A DNA stretch of 64,000 nt, taken from the NCBI GenBank assembly GCA_015066095.1, contig SVPC01000004.1, forward strand, positions 30,677-94,676. Reading direction: 5' to 3'. The notes under the pieces were generated by a model, which saw nothing but the letters and a program-made list of their open reading frames with translations, did not search any database and was not told the DNA's origin. The translations under genes and the position numbers were made by a program. Below, in pieces: positions 26,178-59,153 of this stretch (position 1 is its first letter; each line of letters begins with the position of its first letter). The DNA is from Oscillospiraceae bacterium (GTDB lineage: Bacteria; Bacillota; Clostridia; Oscillospirales; Acutalibacteraceae).

Positions 26178-27356
26178 TTATTCAAATAATACTCCTGCAG
26201 CTTTAAGTGTATTTTGCAGTTCTTTAACATTAAGTGTAGTAGCATCTGTTCCGTTTTTAACACAAAGTGCCGCCGCGGTTCCTGTAACCTCACCGGTAAA
26301 AGCAGCAACAGGAATAACACGAGTTATCTCCCAACCTGTCCCCGTTGCACTGATTATTCTACCTGCAGCATAAAGATTTGGCACCATTTTATTGTAAAGA
26401 GTGGTATAAGGCAATTGAAAACGTCTGCCAAGGCCAGATTTACGAAAATCATTAAACGAGCCAACCGAATTTTCCGGCTTTACGCCATCTTCATTTCCCA
26501 AAAACTCCGACTCACCTATAATTCGGCGAATCTTACGGTACTGTGGCATACCTGGCAAGGTCATAATTTCACGACTTTCCTTATCTTCTGTCTTAAGTCG
26601 GTCAATCAAAACATTGGCGCCCCATGTCATATACTGTGTAACATCTTCGGCAGTAACGCCGTGCAAGTCCTTGTATTTTTCATAAGAGCCGTCCTTACTA
26701 CGAACATAACGACATTCACGCGCGGCGCAGAAATTACCGGTTTGCGACAATTCGTCAACATCTTCCTTGTTAAGTTCAAGAACCAAATATGAAAAAACAT
26801 TGTCACCCACCTCGGTAGGCACCCCTGCGCGATGGCATATTGTGGCGTTACCTGTAGCATCAATAACCATTTTTGCAGGATAAAGTTCACTACCTGCAAC
26901 AGTTTCAACCACGATTCCTGTGATTCTATCGTTTTCCATTACCGGATATGTCGCTAATGTATCAAAAAGCAAACTTACATTATTTTGCTCTAAATAATTA
27001 ACTAAAGCAGATGCAAAAATATTTGGTGAAAAACGTGTTGCATAGCGCTCGTGACGAATAGGGTATATACCCTTACCTCCCCAATGTTTAGGTAAACTTT
27101 CAAAACCGTATTTTATAGAAAGATGAAGAAGTTCCTCGGCAATACCGGCTATCATCTGCTTTCCCTCACCGTCACAAAGAGGTTCGTACCAATTTATAAT
27201 ACCAAGTGTAGCAAGACCGCCTAACATACATGTTTTTTCCAAAAGCAGGGTCTTTGCACCATTACGAGACGCCGCAACCGCTGCCGCAACGCCAGCAATA
27301 CCTCCGCCTACAACTATGACGTCATATGCTGTCTTTTGTGTCAACTTAATATCCAT
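26178..27356 (-). CDS. FAD-dependent oxidoreductase
   Basis: DVIVVGGGIAGVAAAVAASRNGAKTLLLEK Rossmann motif; C-terminal LYAAGRIISATG. ATG at 27356 follows GGAGG-like SD. Confidence 0.9.
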   Translation of the reverse strand: MDIKLTQKTAYDVIVVGGGIAGVAAAVAASRNGAKTLLLEKTCMLGGLATLGIINWYEPLCDGEGKQMIAGIAEELLHLSIKYGFESLPKHWGGKGIYPIRHERYATRFSPNIFASALVNYLEQNNVSLLFDTLATYPVMENDRITGIVVETVAGSELYPAKMVIDATGNATICHRAGVPTEVGDNVFSYLVLELNKEDVDELSQTGNFCAARECRYVRSKDGSYEKYKDLHGVTAEDVTQYMTWGANVLIDRLKTEDKESREIMTLPGMPQYRKIRRIIGESEFLGNEDGVKPENSVGSFNDFRKSGLGRRFQLPYTTLYNKMVPNLYAAGRIISATGTGWEITRVIPVAAFTGEVTGTAAALCVKNGTDATTLNVKELQNTLKAAGVLFE

Positions 27357-50917: not shown

Positions 50918-50928
50918 TTCATAAAAAA

Positions 50929-50961
50929 CAAACCCCCGTGTGAACGGGGGTTTGTTTTTTA
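50929..50961. terminator. Intrinsic terminator
   Basis: AAACAAACCCCCGTgtgaACGGGGGTTTGTTTTTT. Confidence 0.88.
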
Positions 50962-50967
50962 TACATT

Positions 50968-52005
50968 TTATAACTTATCAGCTATTTCCAAAATAAGTTT
51001 TTGTGTTTTTTCCCAACCAAGACAAGGGTCTGTTATTGATTTACCGAAAATATGCTCTTCTGCCTTACAAGCACCGTCTTCAATATAACTTTCAATCATA
51101 AGACCTTTTACAAGGTGCTTAATATCGTTATTGTGATTGCGCGAATGTACCACTTCTTTTGCAATACGTATTTGCTCTAAATACTTTTTACCCGAATTTG
51201 CATGGTTGGTGTCCACAACAACGGCAGGATTTACAAGTCCTGATTTTTCATAAAGAGCATTAAGATTCATCAAATCTTCGTAATGATAATTAGAAACATT
51301 TTTACCCGCAAAATCTACATAACCGCGCAAAATTGCATGCGTAAGCGGGTTACCGCTACTCTCTACTTCCCAACCGCGGTATAAATAGGTATGGCTTGAC
51401 TGACCTGCTTTAATAGAATTCATCATAACAGTAAGGTCACCGCTTGTGGGGTTTTTCATACCAACAGGCTCATCAATACCACTAGCAACAAGACGATGTT
51501 GTTGATTTTCGGTAGAACGCGCACCAACTGCCACATAAGCCAATAAATCAGACAAGTAACGATGGTTTTCGGGGTATAACATCTCGTCAGCACAAGTAAA
51601 ACCATAATCTTTAAGAGCAGTAAGATGCAAATCACGAATAGCAATAATACCCTTTAACATATCTGGTGCGGTTTCGGGGTCGGGCTGATGAAGCATACCC
51701 TTATACCCTTCACCCGTTGTACGCGGCTTATTGGTATAAATACGCGGAATAATTATTATTTTATCTTTAACCTTATCTTCTACAAGGCGAAGACGCGAAA
51801 TATATTCAAGTACAGGGTCTTTATGGTCGGCAGAACAAGGACCGATTACCAAAATAAATTTATCAGATTCACCATTAAATACCGCCTTTATTTCCTTGGC
51901 TCTCTCATCGCGTACCTTTTCCATTTGAGCGCTCAAAGCATACTGCTTTTTAATTTCTTGCGGAATGGGTAACTTTTTGTGGAAATTCATACTCATTTTA
52001 ATCAC
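50968..52005 (-). CDS. aroF: 3-deoxy-7-phosphoheptulonate synthase (AroG-type)
   Basis: LVIGPCSADHKDPVLEYISRL, NPTSGDLTVMMNSIKAGQSSHTYL, VDTNHANSGKKY. Confidence 0.93.
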   Translation of the reverse strand: MIKMSMNFHKKLPIPQEIKKQYALSAQMEKVRDERAKEIKAVFNGESDKFILVIGPCSADHKDPVLEYISRLRLVEDKVKDKIIIIPRIYTNKPRTTGEGYKGMLHQPDPETAPDMLKGIIAIRDLHLTALKDYGFTCADEMLYPENHRYLSDLLAYVAVGARSTENQQHRLVASGIDEPVGMKNPTSGDLTVMMNSIKAGQSSHTYLYRGWEVESSGNPLTHAILRGYVDFAGKNVSNYHYEDLMNLNALYEKSGLVNPAVVVDTNHANSGKKYLEQIRIAKEVVHSRNHNNDIKHLVKGLMIESYIEDGACKAEEHIFGKSITDPCLGWEKTQKLILEIADKL

Positions 52006-52871
52006 ACTTTCTTATTGAATTCACGGCGGCGCTTGGTAGAAAGTCGCATCATATCACGCATTCCGTCACGATCGTCATTGTTAATAAAATTATATAATTT
52101 ATCAAATGTTTCGCGGTAGATGTCCATTTGCTCTAGAAGGGCTTGTTTGTTGGATAAAAACAACTCACTCCACATTTCGTCGTTTATATTTGCTATTCGG
52201 GTCAAATCTCTGAAAGAGTCACCTGTGTACTCCACCAAATCGGGGTCATCGCTCGAACACATAAGCGAAACGGCTATGCAGTGGGTAAGCTGTGACAAAA
52301 ACGCTATCATTTTGTCGTGCTTTTCTACCGACAAAACCGCCACTTTAGCAAAGCCCAAAAGTTCACCCAAATTACTACATAGTTCGATAGCTTCTTGGGT
52401 GTTCTTTTCGGTAGGAACTACAATATAGTTAGCACCTTTAAAAATAGCATCGTCACTGTTTTCTACACCCGAAACTTCTTTACCTGCCATAGGGTGTGCG
52501 GCGATATATTCTACATCACTTCGTAAAATACTCTGAATTTCGTCAACCACACAACCCTTAACACCCGTAACATCAGTAAGCACTGCACCGCTTTTAAAAT
52601 GCTGTTGGTTTTCCTTTACCCACTTTATAAAAATGTGCGGATAAAGTGCAAAAACCACAATATCGGCTTTACCTATAAGTTTAGGGTCAATTTCAGTTGT
52701 GCCGTTATCAATAATGCCGTGTTCCAAAGCATAATCAATCGATGACTGTTCTTTGGTAATAGCATTAACCTCGAAACCTAATTTTTTAAGACCTTTAGCA
52801 TAACTACCGCCGAGGAGCCCCAAACCCACTATCAAAATATTTAATTTTTTAATCAGTTTCATATAAATCAA
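52002..52871 (-). CDS. tyrA: Prephenate dehydrogenase
   Basis: ILIVGLGLLGGSYAKGLKKLG, AAHPMAGKEVSGVENS, FLSQLTHCIAVSL. Confidence 0.93.
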   Translation of the reverse strand: MIYMKLIKKLNILIVGLGLLGGSYAKGLKKLGFEVNAITKEQSSIDYALEHGIIDNGTTEIDPKLIGKADIVVFALYPHIFIKWVKENQQHFKSGAVLTDVTGVKGCVVDEIQSILRSDVEYIAAHPMAGKEVSGVENSDDAIFKGANYIVVPTEKNTQEAIELCSNLGELLGFAKVAVLSVEKHDKMIAFLSQLTHCIAVSLMCSSDDPDLVEYTGDSFRDLTRIANINDEMWSELFLSNKQALLEQMDIYRETFDKLYNFINNDDRDGMRDMMRLSTKRRREFNKKV

Positions 52872-54054
52872 TTCCTAATTTGCTGATTTGTTTGTAAAAA
52901 TCGGGGTAACTTTTTGCTACTGCTTCGGCACTTTCAATACTACCACCCGTAAGTGTTAAAAGTAAGGTAAGCGCCATTGCGATACGATGGTCGTTGTGCG
53001 AATATAATGTGGCTTTAGGTTGCCTTAATTCACCATTTTTAATTTCTACTAAATTTTCAGAAATCTCTACTTCTATACCAAATTTCAAAAGTTCGCGTTT
53101 CATCGTTTCGGCGCGGTCACTTTCCTTTAATTTAAGGCGCTTTGTACCTGTGAAAACCGCACCGCCAAAAAACGAAGATAATGCAAAACACACAGGCGCT
53201 AAATCGGGGCAGTCTGACAAATCAAACTGTTTTTCGCCTTTTTTAAGACCTTCGAATATATCCTTATATACACGGTCACCCTGTAAAGTATCAGTATTTA
53301 AACCGTCTACTAAAACATTACCGCCTATGTAATTAAAAGCATCCAAAAACGCGGCATTTGAACAGTCACCCTCTACCGTATATTCACAAGACTCAAAACT
53401 GCTTTGTCCATCAATTATAAGTGTATTACCGCTTCTTTCCACTTTTACACCAAAGTCTTCAAGACAGCAAACAGTCAAATCTACATAAGAAGCACTTTCA
53501 AATTTGCCAGTTATTTCAATAATACTTTTTTCTTTAAGGGTGGACAAAGCAAACACCATACCACTTATAAACTGACTGGAAATATCCCCTGCCAAGCGGT
53601 AGTTACTTGGCTTTAATTTTCCACACACTGTAACACTGTTTTCGGTTTTTTGGAACAAAATATTCTGCTCTTTTGCAATTTCTTCATAAATACCCAAAGG
53701 TCGCTCGAACAAACGCTTTTCACCCGTTAAAGTAATGCGTTTGCCAAAGGACATACAAAGCGGCAAAAGAAACCTTAATGTGCTTCCGCTCTCGTTACAA
53801 TATAGTACCGCCCCGTCAGGTACTTTGTCGGCTTTAAGACCGCCGATTTCAACAACATCGTCTTTAACTAAAACTTTAGCACCCAAACTTTTAAGGCAAT
53901 TAAGTGTCGCTTCAATATCTTTAGAAAAAGCAAGATTTTTAATAACACTTTTTTCGCTCAATGCCCCGCATATAAGCGCCCTGTGTGCCATACTTTTAGA
54001 GGGCGGTGCAATAATTTTGCCCACCGCCTTTGATGGGTTTATTTTAACCTTCAT
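52849..54054 (-). CDS. aroA: 3-phosphoshikimate 1-carboxyvinyltransferase
   Basis: PPSKSMAHRALICGALS, NESGSTLRFLLPL, DHRIAMALTLL. Confidence 0.96.
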   Translation of the reverse strand: MKVKINPSKAVGKIIAPPSKSMAHRALICGALSEKSVIKNLAFSKDIEATLNCLKSLGAKVLVKDDVVEIGGLKADKVPDGAVLYCNESGSTLRFLLPLCMSFGKRITLTGEKRLFERPLGIYEEIAKEQNILFQKTENSVTVCGKLKPSNYRLAGDISSQFISGMVFALSTLKEKSIIEITGKFESASYVDLTVCCLEDFGVKVERSGNTLIIDGQSSFESCEYTVEGDCSNAAFLDAFNYIGGNVLVDGLNTDTLQGDRVYKDIFEGLKKGEKQFDLSDCPDLAPVCFALSSFFGGAVFTGTKRLKLKESDRAETMKRELLKFGIEVEISENLVEIKNGELRQPKATLYSHNDHRIAMALTLLLTLTGGSIESAEAVAKSYPDFYKQISKLGIDLYETD

Positions 54055-54481
54055 TTTCTCTCTCCAAAATAAGGTCGATAGCCTTTAAATATCCATGGAA
54101 TCCAAGACCCGTGACAGTTGCAAAACAATACTCGCGTACATAACTTATCTGTCTGTAATCTTCCCTTTTTGCAACATCAGAAATATGCACTTCTACTGCG
54201 GGTATGCCGACCGATTTCAAAGCATCCAACAAAGCAATACTTGTATGCGTATAAGCGGCTGGGTTTATAATAATAGCATCAAATTCACTATAAGCGTCCT
54301 GTATTTCATCAACCAGTTCACCTTCGTGATTAGACTGAAAAATCTCAACCGCTATTCGCTTTTCTTTAGCATAAGCATTTATAAGGTCACACAAATCTTC
54401 ATAGGTATTACTGCCGTAAATTTCAGGCTCGCGTATCCCTAACATATTAAGATTAGGACCATTTAAAACTAAAATTTTCAA
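54044..54481 (-). CDS. aroQ: 3-dehydroquinate dehydratase, type II
   Basis: ILVLNGPNLNMLGIREPEIYG, NPAAYTHTSIALLDAL, EVHISDVAKRE. Confidence 0.96.
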   Translation of the reverse strand: MKILVLNGPNLNMLGIREPEIYGSNTYEDLCDLINAYAKEKRIAVEIFQSNHEGELVDEIQDAYSEFDAIIINPAAYTHTSIALLDALKSVGIPAVEVHISDVAKREDYRQISYVREYCFATVTGLGFHGYLKAIDLILERENEG

Positions 54482-55710
54482 CTTTTAAAATCCTCCAAAA
54501 TAATATCTGCAGTACCCTCTGCAGTTTCGCTTGAATTTATCTTTTTATCACAAGTGTCACAATAAATAGAATATCGTTCGTTATAACGCTTTTCAAGTGA
54601 TTGCCTGTCACTTGAAAGCGGTCGGTCAGGGGTGGCAACTAATTTCTCTAATGGGCGGTCAAGAAAATAGACTCTGCCGTTAAGTTTTAGAAAATCTATA
54701 TTTTCTTGTTTTAAAACCGCGCCGCCGCCTGTGGCAATAACCTTGCCTTGTAAAGCAGACACACGCTTTATAACATCGGTTTCAATCTTTCTAAAACCGC
54801 TCTCGCCCGACTTTTCAAATATATCCCGTATATCGCCGTTTTCACTTTCTATAATATCATCAGTATCTATAAATTCTCTACCAAGTTTTTCTGCCAATAT
54901 TTTACCAACAGTTGTCTTACCGCTACCGGGCATACCGATTAAAACAATATTCTCTTTTGATTTGTAAATGTCTTTAAAAATACCTTGTGCTTTTTCTTGT
55001 GGACATTCTTTATCCATAAACTTTTCTACCGCAAAAATTGCTTGGCTTACAAGCATATAAAGACCGCCACACGCGGTAATGCCGCGTTTTTTAGCCTCTG
55101 TTACAAGTTTTGTACATAACGGATTGTAAACCGCATCAAAAATACCTTCCAAAGCAGGAAAATCATCCAAATCAATAAGATTACCATCTATTTTAGGATA
55201 CATACCCACAGGCGTGGTATTGATAATTACCTGTGTTTCGGGCATTTTCTTTGCTTCTTCGTATGTTATGGTATCACTTTTTTTTTCGCGTGACACTTTT
55301 TGTATGCTTTTAGCACCCAAAGTTTCGGCTACAGCATAGGCATTTTTTGTAGTACCGCCGTCACCCAAAATCAACACATTTTTACCTTGTAAATTTATAC
55401 CTGCGTGTTCTATATTAGATTTTAACCCTAAAAAGTCAGTATTATAACCTTTAAGTTTTCCGTTATCATTTACTATAACATTTACAGCCCCTATTTTTTT
55501 TGCAACATCACTTATCTCATCAAGATAACGTATTACGGCTTGCTTATATGGAATTGTAACATTAATACCCTTGAAATTCTTTTGGGTCATAAAGGTGTCT
55601 ACCTCTTCGGGTTTTAACTCCTTTACACCGTAATCCATACAGAAATATTTGGTATAAATCTCTTTTGAAAAACTATGCCCTAATTTTTCACCGATAATTG
55701 CATATTCCAT
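54478..55710 (-). CDS. Shikimate dehydrogenase / shikimate kinase fusion
   Basis: AroE: GEKLGHSFSKEIY, GYNTDFLG. AroK: LIGMPGSGKTTVGKILAEKLG, GGGAVLKQENI. One continuous ORF. Confidence 0.93.
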   Translation of the reverse strand: MEYAIIGEKLGHSFSKEIYTKYFCMDYGVKELKPEEVDTFMTQKNFKGINVTIPYKQAVIRYLDEISDVAKKIGAVNVIVNDNGKLKGYNTDFLGLKSNIEHAGINLQGKNVLILGDGGTTKNAYAVAETLGAKSIQKVSREKKSDTITYEEAKKMPETQVIINTTPVGMYPKIDGNLIDLDDFPALEGIFDAVYNPLCTKLVTEAKKRGITACGGLYMLVSQAIFAVEKFMDKECPQEKAQGIFKDIYKSKENIVLIGMPGSGKTTVGKILAEKLGREFIDTDDIIESENGDIRDIFEKSGESGFRKIETDVIKRVSALQGKVIATGGGAVLKQENIDFLKLNGRVYFLDRPLEKLVATPDRPLSSDRQSLEKRYNERYSIYCDTCDKKINSSETAEGTADIILEDFKS

Positions 55711-56801
55711 TATTCACTCAACCAATCTGTACCATAACGGGTAATAAGTAAATCAGCCAAAGCAAGAGCTGTAACGCTATCCACAACCACCTTCGCACGG
55801 TGCACGATACAAGGGTCGTGTCTGCCTTTGGCTTGGAGTATAGCATTTTCACCCGTTTTAATATTAACGGTATTTTGCGCCTTTGCTATAGTGGGAGTAG
55901 GACGGAAAGCGGTGCGGAAAATCACAGGCATACCGTTTGTAATACCGCCGTTTATACCGCCCGAATTGTTGGTTTTAGTCACTATATTATCATCTATATT
56001 TTCAAAACAATCGTTAGCGTCAGAGCCTGTCATTTGTGCAATATTAAACCCTTTGCCAAATTCTATACCCTTAACACCGGGAACTGAAAAAACTGCGTGG
56101 GATAAAATACCATCAACACTGTCAAACCACGGCTCTCCTACACCCCAGGGCAAACCTGTTACCGCAGTTTCAACTATACCGCCAACGCTGTCACCTTGAG
56201 ATTTTGCACACTTTATTGCTTCTATCATTTCGGAACCCTTTTGGTCATCCAAAACAGCAAATTCCTTGCCGTTAAGTGCCTTTATGTCTGCACTTATATC
56301 TTCAAAATCTCGGTCAGAAATACCTGCACACTCGGATATGTGACTGCCAATTATAATCCCTTTCTTTTGCAATGCGGGGATTATAATACCTGCCGCCGCC
56401 ACTATCGGCGCAGTAATTCTACCGCTAAAATGACCGCCGCCGCGGTAATCTTCAAAACCGCGGTATTTACACTCGGCAGTGAAATCTGCGTGAGATGGTC
56501 GAGCCAAATCTTTTGTCAAAGAATAATCTTTTGAACGGGTATCATTATTTTTTATAACAATACAAATAGGTGTGCCTGTGGTCTTACCCTCAAAAACACC
56601 GCTTAAAATCTCAATTTCATCCTGTTCACGACGAGATGTAGAAACCTCGTCTATTCCTTTACGAAGAGAAAGCATTTTATTTATAAAAGCCATATCCACT
56701 GTTATACCGGGTGTTACACCGTCAAGCACAGCACCAATAGCCACCCCATGACTTTCGCCAAAAAGGGTTATACTCAAATTATTACCAAAAGTGTTTTTCA
56801 T
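55710..56801 (-). CDS. aroC: Chorismate synthase
   Basis: NLSITLFGESHGVAIGAVLDGVTPG, RPSHADFTAECKYRGFEDYRGGGHFSGR. Confidence 0.97.
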   Translation of the reverse strand: MKNTFGNNLSITLFGESHGVAIGAVLDGVTPGITVDMAFINKMLSLRKGIDEVSTSRREQDEIEILSGVFEGKTTGTPICIVIKNNDTRSKDYSLTKDLARPSHADFTAECKYRGFEDYRGGGHFSGRITAPIVAAAGIIIPALQKKGIIIGSHISECAGISDRDFEDISADIKALNGKEFAVLDDQKGSEMIEAIKCAKSQGDSVGGIVETAVTGLPWGVGEPWFDSVDGILSHAVFSVPGVKGIEFGKGFNIAQMTGSDANDCFENIDDNIVTKTNNSGGINGGITNGMPVIFRTAFRPTPTIAKAQNTVNIKTGENAILQAKGRHDPCIVHRAKVVVDSVTALALADLLITRYGTDWLSE

Positions 56802-57823
56802 TTTAATGCAACACTCCTTATCATATCTGAAAATTCGCTGAATGTTATATCTTTCATTTGGAATTTGCCAATTTCGGGCACGGTAACTACCGTTATCTTA
56901 TCGCCCGACATTTTTTTATCGTGTCTACAAGCATCTATAAGTTTTTCGGCATCTTCTTGTAAAGATACTTGAAGCCCTAATTTGAGTAGCACCGTTTCCA
57001 ACTCTTCCCTTACCTTTTGTGAACACATAGGAAGCATACCGATTGCCACACACTCACCGTGATAATACTTATCCATTCCGTTTACACTTTCAATCGCGTG
57101 TGCCAAGGTATGACCGAAATTAAGTACTTTACGAAGACCGCTTTCACGCTCATCTTGTTCGACCACCGCTTTTTTAATGAGTAATGAACAATGAATAATC
57201 TGCTCTATAACATCAAGGTCAAATTCGCTTGTGTTTTTAAATATTTCGAATAGTTCTTTATCACAAGTCGCCGCCATTTTAAGTGCTTCACAAAGCCCGT
57301 TTACAATCTGACGCTGTGGTAATGTCCTTATAACATAGGGGTCTATTACCACCGCTTTTGGCGGATAAAAAGCACCAACAAGATTTTTATAACCCATAAA
57401 ATCAACAGCAGTTTTACCGCCTATAGATGAGTCAACCTGTGAAAGCACGGTGGTGGGAATATTATAAAAATCAATACCGCGCATATATGTAGCCGCCGCA
57501 AAGCCCGAAAGGTCTCCCACAACACCGCCGCCTACTGCAACAACACAGTCACTGCGGGTAAAGTTATTTTCTACCATTGTTTTATGTAACGTTAGCCAAC
57601 TTTCGGTGTTTTTAGTGGCTTCACCTTGCGGTAAAGTTATTATTACGGGTGTTTTGCATTGTTTTGCAACTGCCAGTGCATATTCTTTCGGTACTCCGTC
57701 ATCGGTTACTATCAGCACTCTTCGGTCAAGATTTAATAATTCCCCTACCTTTAAAAGCGCACCGCGTTCCAATGTTATACCATAGCTGCCATTTAAGGTC
57801 TTTACATTGATTTCCAAAACCAT
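56798..57823 (-). CDS. aroB: 3-dehydroquinate synthase
   Basis: VAVGGGVVGDLSGFAAATYMRGIDFYNIPTTVLSQVDSSIGGKTAVDF. Confidence 0.97.
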   Translation of the reverse strand: MVLEINVKTLNGSYGITLERGALLKVGELLNLDRRVLIVTDDGVPKEYALAVAKQCKTPVIITLPQGEATKNTESWLTLHKTMVENNFTRSDCVVAVGGGVVGDLSGFAAATYMRGIDFYNIPTTVLSQVDSSIGGKTAVDFMGYKNLVGAFYPPKAVVIDPYVIRTLPQRQIVNGLCEALKMAATCDKELFEIFKNTSEFDLDVIEQIIHCSLLIKKAVVEQDERESGLRKVLNFGHTLAHAIESVNGMDKYYHGECVAIGMLPMCSQKVREELETVLLKLGLQVSLQEDAEKLIDACRHDKKMSGDKITVVTVPEIGKFQMKDITFSEFSDMIRSVALK

Positions 57824-57827
57824 TCTC

Positions 57828-58919
57828 CTATTTTATAAGAATTTCTTTTTCAAAATGACCTAAAATTTTAAGGTTGTTGCAACACTCTTTAAGGTCTTCT
57901 AGCATCGCTTTACCTTCATCACTCATAATATCGCCTTCGCCCTCGGCGTAGAAATAATAGTCCCATATAAGTTCCTTTGTAGGACGACTTTTGAGCGCTT
58001 TGAGGTTAAATCCGTGTTTACCTATTATGGTTATCGCTTCACCCAACGACCCTGCCGAATTTTTAACGGTAAACAGCATTACAAAATGCTTATCGTTAGG
58101 GGTGGGTTTCTTTTCGGCACGGGTAAACACTGCAAAACGCGTAGTGTTGGTACCGCTTTCGTTGATGTGGCCTTCTATTTTTTCAAGTCCGAATTTCTTC
58201 CCTGCTTCCACACTGCCGATAGCCGCAATATCGGTTCTTCCGCTCTCAGCCACGGTTTTTACCGCAACCGCAGTATTAACGGATTCTGTTGTCTTATATC
58301 CTTTTTCGCGTATAAACTCGGCACATTGACCGAGCGCTTGCGGATGGCTTATAACCTCTTTTATTGTAGAAAGTGTAGCGCCCTTGTTACCCAAAAGATT
58401 CTGAATAACCTCAATTTCATAAACACCACTTATATAAAGACTGCCAAAAAATGCTAAATCAAGCACTTGACCCACATCACCGTTGTGACTGTTTTCAATA
58501 GGTAAAACCGCGCAATCACACTCGCCGTCTGCAACCGCTTTGTAAGCCGCCTTAAAATCTTTAAAGCCTATTGCCTTTGCATCAGGGAAAATTTTCTCTG
58601 CGGCTATGTTTGCAAAAGCGCCCTCAACACCGCTGTATGCCACACGCATACCGTCAAGCAGTTTATGTTGCAATTTCTTTGAAAGGTCGATATTACCCTG
58701 TAGAAAACTCACATAATACGAGCGGTAATCTTCGTTCTCTATATATTCGGTATTACGTGCAATAATCTCGGCTTCTCTTACAAAATCGTCAATAGGCAGA
58801 CCATTTGCCTTTTTATACTCAGCAACAATTCGCGCCGCATCCATTCTCTGTTCGAAAAGACGCGCCATTTCCTTGTCGGTTTGGTTGATTATCGCTCTTG
58901 CTTTTTCAAGTTCAGTCAT
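57828..58919 (-). CDS. pheA: Bifunctional chorismate mutase / prephenate dehydratase
   Basis: N-terminal AroQ-type chorismate mutase; YSGVEGAFANIAAEKIFP, LPIENSHNGDVGQVLDL; C-terminal ACT domain. Confidence 0.96.
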   Translation of the reverse strand: MTELEKARAIINQTDKEMARLFEQRMDAARIVAEYKKANGLPIDDFVREAEIIARNTEYIENEDYRSYYVSFLQGNIDLSKKLQHKLLDGMRVAYSGVEGAFANIAAEKIFPDAKAIGFKDFKAAYKAVADGECDCAVLPIENSHNGDVGQVLDLAFFGSLYISGVYEIEVIQNLLGNKGATLSTIKEVISHPQALGQCAEFIREKGYKTTESVNTAVAVKTVAESGRTDIAAIGSVEAGKKFGLEKIEGHINESGTNTTRFAVFTRAEKKPTPNDKHFVMLFTVKNSAGSLGEAITIIGKHGFNLKALKSRPTKELIWDYYFYAEGEGDIMSDEGKAMLEDLKECCNNLKILGHFEKEILIK

Positions 58920-58938
58920 AATGCACTCCCCAAATCTT

Positions 58939-58991
58939 AAAAATAAAAAAACCGCACCCTACTTTTGCCTTTTCGGCACAAGCAGTTGCGG
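58939..58991 (-). terminator. Intrinsic terminator (attenuator) between leader peptide and pheA
   Basis: Minus strand CCGCAACTGCTTGTGCCgaaaAGGCAAAAGTAGGGTGCGGTTTTTTTATTTTT. Confidence 0.85.
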
Positions 58992-59020
58992 ACTGTCCGT
59001 TAAACCAGTAGCCGAAAAAA

Positions 59021-59089
59021 TTATCGGCACTTCGCGGTGAACGGGCAGCCCTCGTTAAAGTAATAAAAGTAAAAATTGTTAAAGAACAT
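59021..59089 (-). CDS. Phe/Tyr-rich leader peptide of the aro operon
   Basis: GAGGTG SD then ATG TTC TTT AAC AAT TTT TAC TTT TAT TAC TTT AAC GAG GGC TGC CCG TTC ACC GCG AAG TGC CGA TAA = MFFNNFYFYYFNEGCPFTAKCR. Confidence 0.8.
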   Translation of the reverse strand: MFFNNFYFYYFNEGCPFTAKCR

Positions 59090-59124
59090 ACCATTTCACC
59101 TCGCAAAATCTTAGTATATTATGT

Positions 59125-59153
59125 ATTTTACTGCAACAATTGGTGTTTGTCAA
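59125..59153 (-). promoter_or_regulatory. Sigma-A promoter of pheA/aro operon
   Basis: -35 TTGACA (59148-59153), 17-nt spacer, -10 TAAAAT (59125-59130). Confidence 0.8.

Follow-up and report, generated by a model that had tools for sequence, protein, structure and literature searches.

The leader of the aromatic amino acid operon studied here is very probably a ribosome-mediated transcription attenuator that responds to scarcity of charged tRNA-Phe and/or tRNA-Tyr and governs the whole operon from shikimate to Phe and Tyr. The leader lies within a stretch of 64,000 nucleotides from an Oscillospiraceae bacterium, referred to below as the window. The features of a leader-peptide attenuator that can be tested in sequence are all present: an ORF with a Shine-Dalgarno (SD) sequence behind its own promoter, a conserved run of product codons, a terminator, and a covarying, mutually exclusive antiterminator. 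The analysis shows the parts, their conservation, the covariation and overlap of the two helices, and, in the window and most relatives, their modelled exclusivity; translation of the leader, stalling of the ribosome, and a change in readthrough are inferred. Judging from the comparison of sequences, the element is conserved and in all likelihood functional.

From 59153 to 58919, the minus strand holds, in order, a promoter, an SD sequence, a short ORF, a hairpin, a terminator, and then pheA (Table 1). The earlier note had described these parts, with 5 Phe and 3 Tyr codons in the ORF, and the description was confirmed: Phe is found at codons 2, 3, 6, 8, and 11, and Tyr at codons 7, 9, and 10. 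In the fold of the window, GGGCUG.CCGUU pairs with AACGG.CAGUCC, and GCCGA/UCGGC is nested within this pairing. The terminator begins with the final two bases of segment 2. The leader RNA folds 2.7 standard deviations below its dinucleotide shuffles, and 1 of 200 shuffles was as low. On both strands of the 64 kb, the leader is the sole ORF of 15-34 codons with an SD sequence and at least 7 Phe/Tyr in 10 codons, and none of that kind was found in six Markov-1 random windows. Its conservation in relatives places the element far beyond chance. A frame of 64 amino acids (58912-59106, minus strand) overlaps the leader; it starts with TTG 5' of the leader, extends past the pheA start, and is probably a by-product.

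Table 1 Features of the leader and the downstream operon, with positions in the window.
Feature	Position	Strand	Detail
Sigma-A type promoter TTGACA-17-TAAAAT	59125..59153	-	11/12 match
Shine-Dalgarno GAGGTG of leader ORF	59097..59102	-	sequence; 7 nt 5' of ATG 59089
Leader ORF MFFNNFYFYYFNEGCPFTAKCR, 22 codons	59021..59089	-	ATG 59089, TAA ends at 59021
Aromatic control codons 6-11 (Phe Tyr Phe Tyr Tyr Phe)	59057..59074	-	
Antiterminator 5' arm = segment 1 GGGCUGCCCGUU, within leader ORF	59040..59051	-	
Antiterminator apical hairpin GCCGA/UCGGC, across ORF stop codon	59011..59028	-	
Antiterminator 3' arm = segment 2 AACGGACAGUCC	58990..59001	-	
Intrinsic terminator + T7 tract	58945..58991	-	hairpin CCGCA...UGCGG 58991-58952, -21.4 kcal/mol
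pheA (chorismate mutase-prephenate dehydratase), first structural gene	57828..58919	-	ATG 58919
aroB, aroC, aroE-aroK fusion, aroQ, aroA, tyrA, aroF	50968..57823	-	order kept in relatives

The eight operon genes, pheA to aroF, overlap or sit within 4 bp of each other, with a gap of 4 bp between pheA and aroB. This agrees with the eight-gene, whole-pathway operon read earlier from the sequence. The operon products carry out the synthesis of Phe and Tyr from shikimate. A terminator-like hairpin is located directly 3' of aroF (50921-50962). The glnA-type gene upstream of the leader has its own terminator-like hairpin (59235-59208), and the leader therefore begins its own transcription unit.

A PheA search was positive in 52 of 60 related genomes. 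The operon order kept in relatives is [aminotransferase]-pheA-aroB-aroC-aroEK-aroQ-aroA-tyrA-aroF; the aminotransferase gene comes first in most genomes and is absent from the operon head in the window. Whichever gene comes first, the relatives carry upstream of it a short ORF whose core resembles YFYYF, together with a hairpin and a terminator. When 85,488 species genomes were scanned, 80 named loci were obtained. These belong to uncultured Clostridia, mostly from the ruminant gut, many of them labelled Oscillospiraceae or Ruminococcaceae; the term Clostridium-like in the earlier note is thus loose. Of the 80 loci, 62 passed an ORF-based filter for the leader. The covariance model R1, built from 58 sequences, matched 69 of the 80, or 69 of 74 when six contig-end loci are excluded, so homologous Phe/Tyr leaders with covariation do exist in relatives. 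Twelve of the 69 matched loci were outside the R1 training set. In L085, L094, L097, L099, L115, and L140, none of them used for training, the operon begins with aroF and the leader precedes aroF. The leader is truly absent in five loci (L105, L117, L123, L134, and L152). The promoter is also kept, with a match of at least 10/12 in 62 of 63 leaders and a 17-nt spacing in all.

In the order, R1 matched 40 of 396 genomes; in the class, 8 of 392 (one doubtful, and four of the remainder outside the order); and in the phylum, 2 of 399, both within the order of the window. The element was always present as a single copy in a genome with a match. The next gene was an aminotransferase-pheA pair, pheA, or aroF-pheA/tyrA in 41 of the 42 genome matches inspected, and the sole exception was a weak, doubtful match. 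The element precedes different first genes of the same pathway and is therefore tied to Phe/Tyr synthesis, not to a single gene. A weak match in G544 (L193), with neither a Phe/Tyr ORF nor an aro gene, was taken as false; weak matches were also obtained in G069 and G368. The distribution is patchy, and many other genera of the window's family have a diverged PheA (about 34% identity), a different operon, and no element.

Several loci without the leader were also recorded. One close relative (L059, G028) retains a terminator-like remnant with no Phe/Tyr ORF. In two others (L050/L134 in G020 and L055/L152 in G007), all that precedes the aminotransferase gene is a promoter-like stretch. A genome of the same genus (L065, G008) has diverged proteins in the order tyrA-aroB-aroA-aroC-pheA-aroEK-aroQ with neither a leader nor a T-box, as is the case in other genera of the family. 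This gene order suggests operon replacement.

All 63 loci that were examined in detail carry the Phe/Tyr-rich ORF, as do further R1 matches. These 63 leaders contain 265 Phe, 236 Tyr, and 0 Trp in 1435 residues, which bears out the dual Phe and Tyr reading proposed earlier: both end products of the operon are among the leader codons, and the third aromatic amino acid is absent. With the 58 sequences aligned on the end of the aromatic run, its final four codons were Phe or Tyr in 93, 97, 100, and 98%, and exchange between Phe and Tyr occurred at each of them. Such exchange at the aromatic codons can be read as coding constraint. Outside the aromatic cluster, the C-terminal part of the leader peptide varies and can even be read in another frame, yet the RNA pairing of this part is preserved. 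In L131, L140, L169, and L184, the segment-1 RNA is kept and the frame is shifted, giving TAR or AAR instead of GCP; here segment 1 is evidently conserved as RNA, not as peptide. These patterns bear on the idea that the ORF encodes a functional small peptide and that the terminator only insulates or tunes the operon. Conservation of the ORF with its SD sequence and promoter would be in keeping with such a peptide, but amino acids are kept in the aromatic cluster only, with Phe-Tyr swaps, and the C-terminal part shifts as described. A functional peptide is therefore regarded as extremely unlikely.

Two helices were evaluated in the alignment of the 58 sequences. Helix AT, the antiterminator, joins columns 65-78, within the ORF, with columns 139-151. 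Helix T, the terminator, joins columns 146-153 with columns 192-199, together with the upper stem. In helix AT, 77.8% of cells were paired, compared with 29-40% when the helix was slid, and 65 cells showed compensatory double changes, compared with 27.4 in shuffles (0 of 500 shuffles as high). In helix T, 91.6% of cells were paired, compared with 31-45% when slid, and 49 double changes were counted, compared with 15.6 in shuffles. The AT changes at columns 139-145 provide independent support because these columns lie outside T. Columns 146-151 are common to both helices, which makes AT and T mutually exclusive. Unconstrained RNAalifold returned the terminator only, because the two helices share columns, and the helices were therefore counted separately. 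The contested pairs at the terminator foot number only two (CC/GG) in the window and more in many relatives. Together, the conserved codon run and the two covarying, exclusive helices support the ribosome-mediated attenuator logic of the earlier note.

The same note had placed the switch elsewhere, in a pairing of TTCGGC after the stop codon with GTGCCGA in the terminator arm. This would be the arrangement of a classical enterobacterial three-way attenuator, in which 1:2 serves as a pause hairpin and antitermination falls to a separate 2:3 pairing. The post-stop UUUUCGGC can indeed pair with GCCGA(AAA) of the terminator arm in the window and in its closest relatives (L079 and L080), at -12.9 kcal/mol in the window, yet the pairing is not conserved, with a mean z of -0.23 against shuffles and 6 of 54 sequences in its favor. 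By the same measure, the antiterminator duplex embedded in the ORF has a mean z of -3.80, with 51 of 58 sequences below -1.5, and the hairpin around the stop codon has a z of -2.13 (33 of 51). The ORF-embedded antiterminator is conserved and TTCGGC:GTGCCGA is not; the layout is therefore not the enterobacterial 1:2/2:3/3:4. Two further points count against the three-way scheme. With the control codons located before segment 1, the 1:2 hairpin would survive most stalls, and masking of segment 1 favors the terminator in the folding model. The scheme is considered unlikely.

With the antiterminator embedded in the ORF, regulation is predicted to proceed as follows. When charged tRNA-Phe or tRNA-Tyr is scarce, the ribosome would stall within the run of Phe/Tyr codons and leave segment 1, farther down the ORF, free to pair with segment 2. 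The resulting hairpin would carry the stop codon of the ORF near its tip and take bases of the terminator foot. This antiterminator would let RNA polymerase read through into pheA...aroF. With an ample supply of Phe and Tyr, the ribosome would reach the stop codon, cover segment 1, and free segment 2, and the terminator would form. Little role would be expected for GCCGAAAA in the terminator loop. Segment 1 directly follows the control codons, and the apical part of the AT hairpin contains the stop codon.

The effect of ribosome position was modelled by equilibrium folding, with the ribosome taken to cover RNA up to 12 nt from the first base of the A-site codon. In the window, a ribosome at the third- or fourth-last aromatic codon gave a terminator probability of 0.45, which rose to 0.88 at the second-last codon and to 0.99 at both the last Phe codon and the stop. 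Because segment 1 is already partly covered when the ribosome occupies the last Phe codon, only earlier stalls would antiterminate. Across the 58 sequences, the median terminator probability was 0.52 with the ribosome at the third-last codon and 1.00 at the stop, and the difference between stall and stop was above 0.3 in 37 of the 58. When segment 1 was shuffled, the effect of stalling was gone (median 1.00, p about 1e-8). In about 20 of the 58 sequences, the terminator still wins at equilibrium even with a stalled ribosome, and the antiterminator would therefore have to form first in these. Earlier synthesis of the antiterminator has been argued to matter for attenuators in general (PMC9226507).

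A more specific form of the mechanism is a minimal two-hairpin attenuator. In this form, the ribosome would be the sole anti-antiterminator, the antiterminator would be coded around the stop codon, and two amino acids would be read for a whole pathway. We hold this form tentatively, as a possibility somewhat short of an even chance. Since synthesis of the antiterminator precedes that of the terminator, a leader that is not translated would give readthrough, unlike the termination expected of classical attenuators. In the window without a ribosome, the equilibrium model favors the terminator (0.92), so the readthrough predicted without translation would depend entirely on the order of folding. 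Control by the ribosome requires that polymerase and ribosome stay close together. In B. subtilis, the polymerase outruns the ribosome (PMC9226507, PMC7858274), and this uncoupling counts against the mechanism. The few close relatives without the leader were also counted against the attenuator reading, as were the small number of contested pairs in the window, the sequences in which the terminator wins despite a stall, and the coverage of segment 1 by a ribosome on the last Phe codon.

A non-ribosome factor, such as an RNA-binding protein or a metabolite, might instead select the hairpin, leaving the ORF incidental. Pairs of antiterminator and terminator serve many such systems, but the antiterminator here sits within the ORF around its stop codon, and codons are enriched for Phe and Tyr only, with zero Trp, ahead of Phe/Tyr operons. 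Moreover, the Rfam scan of the leader gave no riboswitch or T-box match above gathering and no credible match at E up to 10, consistent with the lack of a T-box noted earlier. Selection by such a factor is thus very improbable.

Firmicutes are the textbook users of T-boxes for amino acid operons, and the leader appears to occupy the place where a T-box would be expected. The T-box (RF00230) also senses tRNA charging through a choice between terminator and antiterminator. It has no match in this leader, though the same covariance model finds seven matches elsewhere in the genome, among them C14:47357-47582 (L194), C14:90659-90897 (L195), C5:5555-5803 (L198), and C28:63669-63880 (L200). T-boxes precede pheS, asnS, and thrS, and one lies in a trpB-containing locus, so this genome uses T-boxes for other tRNA-sensing tasks. 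The T-box of pheS (L194) has GAAGUUC at the specifier position. Two further T-boxes, 2.6 kb apart (C7:24285-24517 and 26893-27135; L197 and L199), each precede a gene in which HTH, cupin, and AMP-ligase-like parts are apparently fused.

A diverged aro operon is led by a T-box in two sister families within the order (L063:12270-12520, minus strand, and L064:4304-4568). The specifier position reads GAAGUUCCC, which by inference suggests a Phe specifier (UUC). The broader idea that sister operons are generally led by T-boxes was rejected: it holds in these two families, but no T-box was found at 11 diverged-type loci of the window's own family, in 4-8 kb each.

The enterobacterial pheA leader (Phe_leader, RF01859) and the trp, his, and leu leaders resemble the Clostridia element in having a short ORF of product codons, a terminator, an alternative hairpin, and an operon for the same amino acid. 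The enterobacterial Phe leader governs pheA alone and uses a separate 2:3 antiterminator helix. In contrast, the Clostridia element carries both Phe and Tyr codons, precedes a whole-pathway operon, and uses the distal half of its ORF for the antiterminator. No conserved 2:3 antiterminator apart from the 1:2 hairpin was found with the post-stop segment and terminator arm as the candidate, and the RF01859 model had no match in the leader in the Rfam scan. On these comparisons, the element falls outside the Rfam model of the enterobacterial Phe-leader family.

Leader-peptide attenuators were formerly known only in Proteobacteria and Actinobacteria, until a His leader was described before hisS/hisZ in bacilli (PMC2965389). 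His attenuators were then predicted in his operons of the B. cereus group, Peptostreptococcaceae, and Erysipelotrichales (PMC9413887). These His leaders also replace a T-box or a repressor and were also predicted from sequence, whereas their codons, genes, and lineages differ, and attenuator, terminator, and antiterminator hairpins are described for them (PMC2965389, PMC9413887). The uORFC-13-1 motif of Acholeplasma is a uORF with a Phe codon before aroF and an adjoining terminator (PMC8632094). It is alike in having a promoter and RBS, a short uORF that contains one or more Phe codons, and an intrinsic terminator alongside. It is set apart from the Clostridia element by its description, which covers Acholeplasma and environmental sequences only, in 24 representatives exclusively before aroF (PMC8632094), and mentions neither Tyr codons nor an antiterminator within the ORF. 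The earlier note's implication that Firmicutes lack such leaders therefore does not hold strictly. The vmlR leader of B. subtilis shares with the proposed mechanism uORF stalling and a choice between antiterminator and intrinsic terminator in a Gram-positive host, and differs in its antibiotic-induced stalling and an additional anti-antiterminator hairpin (PMC9226507); the translating ribosome seems to fill that role here. A literature search, with subscription papers outside its reach, found no description of a Phe/Tyr leader in Clostridia.

Leader-peptide attenuators had thus already been predicted in Firmicutes, for His and, as a candidate in Acholeplasma, for Phe; the Phe/Tyr variant is new. 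Its breadth in Clostridia, the dual amino acid reading, the whole-pathway target, and the antiterminator within the ORF are surprising. The element adds a family absent from Rfam and predicts regulation of the entire aromatic amino acid pathway in many gut bacteria. It also provides a clear case in which related bacteria apply different sensing devices to the same pathway. A widespread, covarying Phe/Tyr leader attenuator in Clostridia that also carry T-boxes offers a direct handle on whether transcription-translation coupling holds there. If the two-hairpin form is true, close coupling of transcription and translation would be relied on across a wide range of Clostridia.
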